Shown here: positions 27,719 to 32,606 of the stretch, one piece after another | Position numbering within the stretch: position 1 is the stretch's first letter | How the letters are laid out: each line of letters begins with the position of its first letter | Origin: Elusimicrobiota bacterium | GTDB taxonomy: Bacteria > Elusimicrobiota > Elusimicrobia > FEN-1173 | Direction: 5' to 3' | Assembly: GCA_016788905.1 (NCBI GenBank) | Contig: JAEURZ010000015.1 | Coordinates: forward strand, 1-64,000 | Length of the DNA: 64,000 bases | Notes under the pieces: model-generated | The model's database searches: none | The model's input: only the letters and a program-made list of their open reading frames with translations | Told to the model about the DNA's origin: nothing | Program-made: the position numbers and the translations under genes

Positions 27719-28864
27719 TTAGAACGAGAGGATCACCTGGGCGCCGATGGTGGCTTGACTCTTCCTGTTCATGTTCCCCAGATCATCAGAGAACGCCATC
27801 GTTCCCCCGTTGTTATAGGTTGAATGGTCCGCGCGGTACTCCAATCGGTAGATGACGTCATCCTTTTTGGCCTGGAGTGTGACGGTTTCCGAGCGGAGAA
27901 CCTGTTCCATCCCTTCGAGCCGAGTTCCGTCGTCATCCAGTGTTTCCCATCGGCCGGCAATGGAGAACATGTCGTTGATTTTGAAGTTGGCGTGAACGCC
28001 CACCCCTTGCCAGTTCCCTGTTTTTCTCTCAGAGGAAGCCGTGATCTCGTCTGGATGGTTGGTTTTTTCTTCGCCGATGTCGTAGTTCCCAATGATTGTG
28101 AGGCTGTCGATGGGGGTCACCTTGACAATGGCATCCACCAAACTTCGTCCATTCCCGGCAACGCTTCGTTCGTTGTCTCCGTTGGGGTTTTGTTCCGAGC
28201 CGTAGGCGCCGCCCAGTGTGATGGATGTTTTGGGCAGGAGCGTGGTTCCCACCTGAGCGATGGCGGTCTTCCCTTTGTTGTTGTCGTTCATGTTGTCCCA
28301 ACCGTTCACAATCCCAACGGTGGTAGTGACCTCTCCATTCATCAGGCTCTTGTCGGCCTTGAGCCCGGTGTGGGCGGTGGGAATAGCGAAGCCGAAGAGG
28401 AGACCTCGGCTGATGTTGAAGTTGTCTTTCGCCTCAATCACTTCAACCCCGAAAGGAGTCACAAACTTTCCTAGAGTAAATTTGGCCCCCGTGATCGGGC
28501 AAGGGAAAGTGAGGTAGGCTTGGGCGATGTCGGCCTCAAGGTTGGTCTCCGTTGAACTGGAATCGGGCGTATAAAAACCTCCGGCATTTGTTACCGAGGC
28601 ATCGTGGCCATACATGAGTTCTATCTTGTAGCCCACATTCTCCTTCACCATTCCATCCACCCCGATTTTGGCGTTGTGTAAGGTGATGGTATTGGACTGG
28701 TCATCGAAAGACCGCATTTCGTTTGTCGATTGGCCATTCAGGTTGTAGTTGTACCCGACATCCACCATCCCGGTGACGTTGGGCCCTTCCGCTCGGACGC
28801 CCGCACCCAGGGAGGCCAGTATGTAAACGGCCATGAGGGTTACTCCTGTTGATTTTACGCGCAT
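27719..28864 (-). CDS. OmpL-like outer-membrane beta-barrel porin (BBP2 family)
   Basis: A 381-residue porin. Signal peptide residues 1-25 end GAGVRAEG. The family signature is clear: LGKFVTPFGVEVIEAKDN, then NISRGLLFGFAIPTAHTGL, as in putative beta-barrel porin-2 proteins. Amphipathic beta-strands run through to the C-terminal phenylalanine (VILSF), a BamA recognition feature. The solute is unknown. AAGGAGAG lies a few bases before the ATG. It is divergent from glnN and preceded by an attenuator-like leader, so nitrogen-linked or stress-linked regulation is possible but unproven. Confidence 0.88.
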   Translation of the reverse strand: MRVKSTGVTLMAVYILASLGAGVRAEGPNVTGMVDVGYNYNLNGQSTNEMRSFDDQSNTITLHNAKIGVDGMVKENVGYKIELMYGHDASVTNAGGFYTPDSSSTETNLEADIAQAYLTFPCPITGAKFTLGKFVTPFGVEVIEAKDNFNISRGLLFGFAIPTAHTGLKADKSLMNGEVTTTVGIVNGWDNMNDNNKGKTAIAQVGTTLLPKTSITLGGAYGSEQNPNGDNERSVAGNGRSLVDAIVKVTPIDSLTIIGNYDIGEEKTNHPDEITASSERKTGNWQGVGVHANFKINDMFSIAGRWETLDDDGTRLEGMEQVLRSETVTLQAKKDDVIYRLEYRADHSTYNNGGTMAFSDDLGNMNRKSQATIGAQVILSF

Positions 28865-28935
28865 TTTTGACTCTCCTTTTTATTATGATTTCGCTGGGCG
28901 GTTACTTCTTAGATCCCACCCCGTTCGCCTTCTAC

Positions 28936-28969
28936 AAAAAAAATCCTCCCAAGCTTGTGCTCGGGAGGA
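28936..28969 (-). terminator. Attenuator-like terminator in the porin leader
   Basis: On the minus strand a 7-bp stem (28969-28963 with 28950-28944, extended by an inner AGC/GCT pair) is followed by eight consecutive T (28943-28936), all upstream of the porin start at 28864. A competing GGACG/CGTCC hairpin (28967-28971 with 28976-28980) shares three bases with the terminator stem. A 17-codon ORF (28985-28932, reverse) overlaps the terminator. Confidence 0.65.
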
Positions 28970-29023
28970 CGCCATCGTCCAACATGATGCTCTTGACCGC
29001 ACAGCCTCGTGCGATGGGTTGCA

Positions 29024-29052
29024 CTCTAACAGAATCCAGTGGGAAGTGTCAA
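29024..29052 (-). promoter_or_regulatory. Porin promoter
   Basis: Reverse strand TTGACA (29052-29047), 17-bp spacer, TTAGAG (29029-29024). The transcript would start near 29018 and run about 80 nt to the attenuator-like terminator. Confidence 0.6.
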
Positions 29053-29067: not shown

Positions 29068-29098
29068 TTGATTTCGGCTTTGGGCAGTGTGGTATAAT
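29068..29098 (+). promoter_or_regulatory. glnN promoter
   Basis: A perfect -10 TATAAT (29093-29098) with a modest -35 TTGATT (29068-29073) at a 19-bp spacing. The start would be near 29105, giving a ~120-nt leader with a 7-bp hairpin at 29119-29138. Confidence 0.55.
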
Positions 29099-29223
29099 GA
29101 TCAGGCTGTTCGAATAATCATGGACAACGACGTCCATGGAACACAAGAATCAATTCAACGGGGATGACACACTCCACCAGGGATCCCCTGGGGGGATACT
29201 TCTTTTCAAGCGAGGTTAATGAT

Positions 29224-31389
29224 ATGCCAACGAAACGAGCCAGTGCGAGTGCTGCGATCCATTCTTCAAACGGCCGCTCCCTTTCAGCCGAACCCACTTT
29301 GTCGGAAATTTTTGGTTCCAACGTTTTTTCTGAGAGAGAAATGAAAAAGCGTCTTCCCAAAAACATCCACGCGGCGCTCCGTAAAGTGATGCTTGGAGAG
29401 GCTGAGTTGACCCTGGATGTGGCCAACGTTGTGGCCGAAGCGATGAAGGTGTGGGCCATGGAAAAAGGCGCCACTCATTACACCCATTGGTTCCAGCCCC
29501 TCACAGGAAAAACAGCGGAAAAGCACGACAGTTTTTTGGAGCCCAAAGGGGATGGCTCCGCTATGGCCATTTTTTCCGGCAAAGCTCTTATAAAAGGAGA
29601 ACCGGACGCTTCCAGTTTCCCGTCGGGTGGGATTCGGGCCACTTTTGAGGCCCGGGGTTATACGGCGTGGGACACCACGTCCCCAGCCTTCTTGAAGGAA
29701 GACGCCGCCGGTAACGCGACGTTGACCATTCCTACCGCCTTCGTGAGTTATACCGGCGAAGCGTTGGATAAAAAGACCCCTCTCCTTCGTTCCATGGAGG
29801 CTTTGTCCCGCCAGGCGGTTCGCGTGCTCAATGCCATCGGAAATAAAAAAAGCAAGAGGGTCATCTCCACCGTTGGGCCGGAACAGGAATACTTTTTAAT
29901 TGACAAGGATTACTTCGATCAACGAACGGACCTGATCCTTGCGGGTCGGACGCTCTTTGGCGCTCCTCCACCGAAAGGGCAGGAACTGGAAGACCAATAT
30001 TTTGGCGCCATCAAAGATCGTATCGCGAAATTTATGCGAGAGCTCGACGTCGAGCTTTGGAAAATGGGCATTTCTTCCAAAACGAAGCACAACGAGGTGG
30101 CCCCCGCTCAATACGAAATGGCTCCGATCTTTTCAATCTCCAGCATTGCCGCGGACCAAAACCAGCTGGTGATGGAAACCATGCAAAAGGTGGCGCTCCG
30201 GAACGGGTTGGTGTGCCTCCTCTACGAAAAACCTTTTGCGGGGGTGAACGGGTCTGGGAAACACAACAACTGGTCCATGGCCACGGATGACGGGTTGAAC
30301 CTTCTTGAGCCGGGCCACACACCCCATGACAACGAACAATTCTTGGTTTTCCTCGCCGCGACACTCACGGCGGTCGATCGTCATGCCGATAAACTTCGGG
30401 CCAGCGCGTCCAACCCGGGCAACGACCTTCGCCTGGGAGCCAACGAAGCACCGCCCGCCATTATTTCCGTCTTCATGGGCGAGCAATTGACCACGGTGCT
30501 GAGCAACATTGCTCAGGGTAAAAAAACGGAGTCGAAGGGACAACAGTTCATGACGATCGGTGTGGACACCTTGCCGAAACTGCCTCTGGACAATTCCGAC
30601 AGGAACCGTACGTCACCTTTCGCGTTTACCGGAAATAAGTTCGAGTTTCGCATGGTGCCGTCTTCCATGTCCATTGCCGACGCCAACACGGTATTAAACA
30701 CCATCGTGGCGGAGGCCTTGGATGGGATCGCCAGCCGACTGGAAAAGGCCAAAAACCTTGAAAAGGAAGTGACCGCAATCGTTCAGGAAGTGATGAAGGA
30801 ACATGGGCGGATCATTTTTAATGGAAACAATTACACCGAGGATTGGGTGAAAGAAGCGGCGAACCGCGGTCTGCCGAACATTTCGTCCTCTGTCGAGGCC
30901 TATGGTGCTTTAGCCAACGAAAACGCTGTGGCTCTTTTCGAAAAGTACAAGGTTCTCTCGGGGCGTGAACTTCATTCTCGTTATGAGATTGTCTTGGAGC
31001 AGTACGCCAAGCATATTCATATTGAAGCCCGATGCGCGGTGGCCATGACAAAAAATCAATATCTCCCGTCCATCCTTTTGTTTGCGCGCGAATTGGCAGA
31101 AACGGTGACGGCTCTCAAATCTGTTGGGGCGGATGCTTCTGTTCCCGAGGCTCTGCTCGCTCAGGTGAATCAGCGGCTTTCATCGGCGGTAAAAAAGTTA
31201 GCCGTTTTGGAGCGCGCGGTGAGCCTGGCGAATGGGGAGGAAAACCCAGAGAAAAAGGCGAAACTGTTTCGTGACAATGTTTTTACGGCGCAGGTTGAGC
31301 TTCGCCAAGATATTGACGCGTTGGAGATCGTTCTTCCCAATGATCTTTGGCCCGTTCCTACCTATCAGGAGATGCTGTTTAACCTCTAA
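29224..31389 (+). CDS. glnN: Type III glutamine synthetase
   Basis: GlnN condenses ammonia and glutamate using ATP and is a ~720-residue enzyme forming double hexamers, distinct from the 450-residue GlnA. The 721-residue product shows the family features: [16 protein letters not shown] near the N-terminus, [50 protein letters not shown], and the nucleotide/metal site [14 protein letters not shown] 29224 (GAGG upstream) is chosen over ATG 29164. It is monocistronic, ending at a strong terminator. Confidence 0.95.
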
Positions 31390-31979: not shown

Positions 31980-32606
31980 ATGAAAATCCTTATTGCGGAA
32001 GATGACCCGACCACTCTTGAAACATTGACGCGGGCCTTGGAACGGTGGAACCTGGAAGTCATCCCAGCGGTTAACGGGCGTGAAGCTTGGGAAATCCTCC
32101 AGCGACCGGACCCCCCGCAGATGGCCCTGTTGGACTGGATGATGCCGGATATGGAAGGACTTGAGGTTTGTCGTTTGTTTCGGGAGAAACCGGGCCTTCA
32201 GATGTGTTACATGATCCTCCTGACGTCCCGGAACAGTAAGGATGATTTGATGATGGGCCTTCTCTCTGGGGCGGATGATTATGTGACGAAACCTTTTCAC
32301 GCGGGGGAGTTGTGGGCTCGAATTGAAGTGGGGCGTCGGGTGTTGAACATACAACAAACATTGGCCGATCGGATTCGGGATTTAACCGAAGCCATGACTC
32401 AAATTAAAAATCTCCGCGGCTTGTTGCCCATCTGTGCCTATTGCAAAAAGATCCGGGATAGTAAAGATTACTGGCGCCAAGTGGAAAGTTACCTGGCCGA
32501 ACATACGGACGCTACGTTCACCCACGGGATTTGTCCGGACTGTTTTTCCCGGGTCATGGCTGAAAACTCTAAAAACCTTCCCCCGCCCATCGACTCTATC
32601 GGTTGA
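31980..32606 (+). CDS. Response regulator with cysteine-rich C-terminal module
   Basis: A 208-residue protein. The receiver domain (1-120) has the acidic pair D8/D9, phospho-acceptor D52 (LLDWMMPD) and K104 (YVTKPF). A helical linker (125-145) leads to a compact tail with C152/C155 (CAYCKKIRD), H182 and C185/C188 (HGICPDC), plus W165 in DYWRQVESYL. This tail is recurrent in environmental regulators and kinases and looks like a small metal-binding or redox module, but its role is not established. GGAG precedes the ATG. It probably pairs with the HPt protein upstream. Confidence 0.85.
   Translation: MKILIAEDDPTTLETLTRALERWNLEVIPAVNGREAWEILQRPDPPQMALLDWMMPDMEGLEVCRLFREKPGLQMCYMILLTSRNSKDDLMMGLLSGADDYVTKPFHAGELWARIEVGRRVLNIQQTLADRIRDLTEAMTQIKNLRGLLPICAYCKKIRDSKDYWRQVESYLAEHTDATFTHGICPDCFSRVMAENSKNLPPPIDSIG

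Follow-up and report, generated by a model that had tools for sequence, protein, structure and literature searches.

The gene for an outer-membrane porin in an Elusimicrobiota bacterium is very probably preceded by a transcription attenuator that is read by an ANTAR protein. The leader lies on the minus strand of the window, by which we mean the whole 64,000-nt stretch of DNA that was analysed, and occupies the gap between the porin gene, whose start ATG is at 28864, and a divergent glutamine synthetase III gene. In the direction of transcription, the minus strand carries a promoter, two small hairpins (P1 and P2) and an intrinsic terminator, and the porin start follows after about 70 nt. The features are as follows.

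29164..31389, plus strand: divergent glutamine synthetase type III gene, the start of which may be at 29223 (Pfam GSIII_N, 7.5e-77)
29047..29052, minus strand: -35 hexamer TTGACA, with the same promoter-P1 spacing as in the elements of relatives
29023..29028, minus strand: -10 hexamer TAGAGT with TG just before it, placed by the promoter match and the spacing in relatives
28998..29013, minus strand: P1 hairpin CGCAC-GAGGCU-GUGCG, a hexaloop with G at positions 1 and 4 (G1/G4), to which a model built without this genome aligns with 25.2 bits
28981..28995, minus strand: linker between P1 and P2, 15 nt, or 17 nt with P1 taken as 5 bp
28967..28980, minus strand: P2 hairpin GGAC-GAUGGC-GUCC, 4 bp, hexaloop G1/G4
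28943..28970, minus strand: intrinsic terminator stem-loop GUCCUCCCGAGC-ACAA-GCUUGGGAGGAU, 12 pairs, loop ACAA
28936..28943, minus strand: run of eight U, the first of which is paired within the terminator stem
28932..28985, minus strand: 17-codon ORF MLDDGVLPSTSLGGFFL (ATG TTG GAC ... TTG TAG), judged incidental
27719..28864, minus strand: BBP2-family (OmpL-like) outer-membrane porin gene, the target (Pfam PF07642, 2e-60)

An attenuator-like leader had been proposed here in the initial annotation, and every part that it named was found in its place. P1 has 5 bp, or 7 bp when two further pairs are counted (28996-29015). The 3' arm of P2, GUCC (28970-28967), also forms the first four nucleotides of the terminator stem, and through these shared nucleotides P2 and the terminator are mutually exclusive. 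The leader folds more stably than all of 200 dinucleotide shuffles (z = -4.46), and when only the 60 nt upstream of an unaltered terminator were shuffled, 0 of 20,000 shuffles produced two comparable hexaloop hairpins of which one overlaps the terminator. The promoter hexamers are separated by an 18-nt spacer that contains the TG and would place the transcription start near 29017, just before P1. Taken alone, the promoter match in the window is weak evidence, as it scores 10/12 and such matches were observed 2 times with 1.7 expected. Across elements, a sigma-70 match of 10-12/12 with the -10 hexamer ending 6-9 nt before P1 was present in 6 of the 15 tested, the window included, and such scores appeared in about 1.3% of shuffles.

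By computed energy the terminator state with P1, at -31.6 kcal/mol, is far more stable than P1 together with P2, at -14.4 kcal/mol. Before the 3' arm of the terminator is made, the nascent RNA is computed to fold into P1 and P2; a protein keeping P2 closed would therefore allow readthrough. Mutually exclusive hairpins with a terminator would also suit a metabolite-binding riboswitch with an aptamer of its own, one of the options raised initially, and the minimum free energy fold of the bare leader does contain an extra long-range helix, CCAUCG/CGAUGG, that replaces P1 and P2. We found no reason to regard this helix as functional. Rfam gave no match over the window at the curated threshold or on the element at a relaxed threshold, and what is conserved spans no more than some 45 nt, consists of two hexaloop hairpins and tracks ANTAR genes, leaving a riboswitch with next to no chance of being correct.

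The ANTAR-target motif consists of dual hexaloops with A at position 1 (A1) and G at position 4 (G4), the second hairpin being exclusive with a terminator (PMC3369931, PMC8934654). In the window we found two tandem hairpins with six-base loops and at least three pairs each, G at position 4 of both loops (GAGGCU and GAUGGC), a P2 that overlaps the intrinsic terminator by the four nucleotides named above, and a linker of 15 nt, within the range of 2-25 nt used in a published search for ANTAR RNAs (PMC8164766). The genome encodes exactly one ANTAR protein. A is missing from position 1 of both loops, where the window has G. The linker is also longer than the 5-12 nt of the Enterococcus faecalis eut leaders, in which a 14-nt linker is harmful (PMC3369931), and this counts against the ANTAR reading. 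By analogy, the leader would work like an ANTAR antitermination leader, and we file it as a loop variant rather than a canonical member. The layout, which had initially been matched to no known class, thus corresponds to the ANTAR dual-hexaloop antiterminator; conditional readthrough, suggested at that stage, is the favoured reading, and among the options then listed it is protein-binding attenuation that is supported.

Homologous leaders were compared by structure because a BLAST search with the leader DNA against 60 relatives returned no homologue beyond chance. The porins nearest to that of the window come from Elusimicrobia metagenome-assembled genomes, and in relatives a PII gene frequently precedes the porin gene, or amtB, glnA or an ANTAR gene is found nearby (PII, glnA and most amtB neighbours were named from translations). 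Dual-hexaloop leaders with a terminator stand before porin orthologues, or before the operons that contain them, in five related Elusimicrobia genomes (G001, G003, G025, G004 and G042), and leaders of the same type precede porins in Omnitrophota and Methylomirabilota. The hairpin pairs are GCAAAAC-AAUGAU-GUUUUGC and GGAC-AAAGUU-GUCC in G001, GCUGC-AAAGAA-GCAGC and GGC-AAAGAA-GCC in G025, and CCGCAC-GGGGCC-GUGCGG and CGAAC-GAAGAC-GUUCG in G003. In many relatives the porin gene is internal to an operon or lacks an element of this type. An absence of the hairpins from orthologous porin leaders had been named as grounds for abandoning the attenuator; several of these leaders have them, though not all, and the proposal stands.

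A scan of 80 porin loci from public genomes for dual hexaloops with a terminator gave 11 matches with G at position 4, 3 with A, 2 with C and 1 with T, and the same scan on two shuffles gave none. A covariance model found 24 matches in these loci at E <= 0.05, all on the strand of the porin and 11 of them not seeds. Covariation counts across the elements are strong, but the seeds were chosen for forming stems, so these counts are not independent and carry less weight. Within Elusimicrobia the elements precede genes for porin, amtB, glnA, gltB, gdhA, a nifA-like protein, an amino-acid permease and ANTAR proteins, where the names glnA, gltB, gdhA, nifA-like and permease outside this genome were read from translations. 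In Elusimicrobia RIFCSPLOWO2_01_FULL_60_11, two dual-hexaloop attenuators stand in tandem before a porin-family gene (L072, 2106-2151 and 2220-2263). Dual hexaloops without a clear overlapping terminator were seen before glutamate dehydrogenase genes (L189 and L197), where they perhaps control translation.

The homologous leaders also bear on the 17-codon ORF, which spans P2 and the terminator and had raised the option that ribosomes translating a leader peptide choose between the hairpins. The G004 element has a similar ORF, of 19 codons, at the corresponding position. It is missing, however, from the other homologous leaders examined, in which the hairpins are conserved instead, and the ORF of the window has neither a Shine-Dalgarno sequence nor a run of regulatory codons. 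Leader-peptide attenuation is thus exceedingly improbable.

To the ANTAR reading, the genome itself adds two further leaders. A covariance model (R2) made with 24 elements, all of them from other genomes, was used to search the 2.5-Mb genome, and in this ranking, which rests on covariance search, the window element came first with 25.2 bits, an amtB leader second with 23.8 bits, and the next match had 16.9 bits. This amtB leader reads AACAC-ACUGGU-GUGUU, then GGAC-AAUGAC(C)-GUCC with one extra base in the P2 loop, and then a terminator. The only other amtB leader of the genome (L206, about 1225-1345) has GGCAC-ACCGUU-GUGCC and GAGAC-AACGAC-GUCUC, both hexaloops being A1/G4, followed by a terminator. 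Its P1 stem has 13 perfect pairs, and its linker of about 35 nt sets P2 at a longer spacing than described for ANTAR RNAs; it was identified by visual inspection, and the model reports only the P1 region, with a weak score.

Two further observations were made in the window. The match that the held-out model ranks second there, with 13.7 bits, is a single canonical hexaloop hairpin, AUGGAC-AACGAC-GUCCAU (A1, G4), in the leader of the glutamine synthetase III gene (29083-29138, plus strand) near the inferred transcript start; that leader has neither a clear partner hairpin nor a terminator overlapping it. At 31980-32606 (plus strand), a response regulator receiver domain is joined to a C-terminal region that could not be assigned and contains several cysteines.

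The single ANTAR protein of the genome (G000:C25:4879-5034, 1.8e-23) is encoded on a contig other than that of the porin, directly upstream of a gene named NAD synthetase from its translation. It has 410 aa and the architecture GAF-GAF-ANTAR. The RNA is touched in EutV by Arg142, Lys149, Glu160, Tyr164 and Met172 (PMC8934654), and in an alignment with PDB 6wsh the corresponding positions of our protein hold Arg, Lys, Glu, Phe and Met, a residue mapping that is our own, the chain numbering of 6wsh being offset by 2 from that paper. At the Tyr164 position, Phe is also present in a Mycobacterium ANTAR protein (1s8n), and Trp in NasR (4akk). In the PDB, the N-terminal GAF domain comes closest to that of PtsP-type phosphotransferases. 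These enzymes are nitrogen sensors, and the likeness hints at nitrogen sensing, as a lead rather than a result.

The elements and ANTAR genes occur together. Among the 60 relatives, every model match with E <= 0.02 lies in a genome that has an ANTAR gene. Across 295 genomes of the phylum, matches with E <= 0.05 were found in 18 of the 68 genomes with an ANTAR gene and 8 of the 227 others, the 18 including two genomes (G061 and G210) whose matches lie in or beside coding sequence and look like chance. With the seed genomes left out, the counts were 12/60 and 8/227 (p = 8e-5), and when a terminator judged by eye was required after the match, they were 7/60 and none, since the matches in genomes lacking ANTAR genes have no terminator. 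The genes can also be neighbours: in G001 the ANTAR gene is directly beside the porin gene, in the order porin then ANTAR, and a Methylomirabilota contig (L077) carries amtB, ANTAR, the element and porin in this order. The ANTAR reading is thus based on the anatomy of the leader, the homologous leaders, the linkage and co-occurrence with ANTAR genes, and the conserved RNA-contact residues.

We then considered what the G at loop position 1 means. Among 86 loops with G4 in a set of 44 elements, 70 begin with A, 15 with G and 1 with C, and G begins both loops in three elements, namely the window, the G003 porin leader and G004. An A-to-U change at this position weakens EutV action, and the position is needed in eutP (PMC3369931). 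In the window, both loops could become smaller through pairing of G1 with C6 or U6. It is conceivable on these grounds that the window holds a degenerate element, in which A-to-G changes in both loops abolished ANTAR binding and the terminator merely lowers porin expression. We consider this very unlikely. The element retains G4, the closing C-G pair of each hairpin and the overlap with the terminator; G1/G1 elements with intact stems and terminators are shared with two other genera of the same family (G003 and G004); G1 is present in 15 of the 86 G4-bearing loops; and the EutV-RNA structure shows contact to G4 only and none to A1 (PMC8934654). In the operon of G003 (L069, 5058-6834), glnA is preceded by an A1/A1 element, and a G1/G1 element separates it from the porin gene. 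This genome has one ANTAR gene, and one protein would therefore have to read both kinds. C or U occupies position 6 in 14 of 15 G1 loops and 44 of 70 A1 loops (p = 0.017). A rather unlikely extension of the ANTAR reading is that the G1/G1 elements of this Elusimicrobia family form a distinct recognition subclass, in which G1 pairs with C6 or U6 to give a tetraloop-like surface with a different affinity for the GAF-GAF-ANTAR protein. If so, the porin leader and the glnA or amtB leaders would respond to one regulator at different thresholds.

For the attenuator under ANTAR control, we propose the following mechanism, in which we infer the binding of the ANTAR protein to the G1/G1 version of the element, its binding as a dimer, the antitermination step and the nitrogen signal. 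Transcription would begin just upstream of P1. By default (OFF), P1 would form, the polymerase would make the terminator, and the RNA would stop after about 80 nt. When nitrogen status, presumably sensed by the GAF domains, activates the GAF-GAF-ANTAR protein, a dimer would bind both hexaloops as they emerge and hold P2 closed, withholding GUCC from the terminator, and the polymerase would then continue into the porin gene. Both ammonium transporters of the genome are most likely under the control of this ANTAR protein as well; the porin would then be switched on with nitrogen uptake and looks like part of a nitrogen-uptake programme.

The terminated RNA might itself act in trans, for instance by serving the ANTAR protein as a decoy, like the trans-acting RNAs EutX and Rli55. 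Because the terminator is strong, much of the short RNA is to be expected in the OFF state. The terminator dismantles P2, however, leaving one hexaloop on show, and no second small-RNA signal was found, which makes this function highly improbable. Of the small RNA initially suggested to arise from the same promoter, an OFF product of about 80 nt is thus expected, whereas nothing supports its function in trans.

The nearest known systems to this ANTAR-type leader are those of E. faecalis eut/EutV, Klebsiella nasF/NasR and Pseudomonas aeruginosa amiE/AmiR (PMC3369931, PMC8934654), with which it shares two short hexaloop hairpins with G4, a short linker, a P2 overlapping the 5' arm of the terminator, an ANTAR protein in the genome and nitrogen-related targets. 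It differs from them in having G1 rather than A1 in both loops, a 15-nt linker, a BBP2 porin as target, an Elusimicrobia host and an ANTAR protein with two GAF domains instead of REC or NIT. A single ANTAR protein likewise reads several nitrogen-gene leaders in the NasT regulon of Bradyrhizobium diazoefficiens (PMC6759348) and, as cited in PMC8164766, in Geobacter, whose nif genes are under ANTAR control; the targets deduced here are one porin and two ammonium transporters. The actinobacterial ANTAR RNAs (PMC8164766) belong to another phylum but likewise have a looser loop consensus, with only >50% A1 and G4, and a linker of 2-25 nt. This kind of RNA switch is therefore already known, but we found no description of it in this phylum, with a porin as target or with G1/G1 loops in the open-access papers searched; none of these papers was found to mention a porin target with ANTAR or to join ANTAR and Elusimicrobia.

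With this leader, a porin family set in amtB-glnK-glnA surroundings across several uncultured phyla gains a proposed mechanism of control and a likely regulator. It would extend ANTAR antitermination to Elusimicrobia and tie outer-membrane uptake to nitrogen status. Loops with A1 and with G1 that would share one regulator also offer a natural set for probing the role of loop position 1, which the EutV-RNA structure leaves open (PMC8934654).
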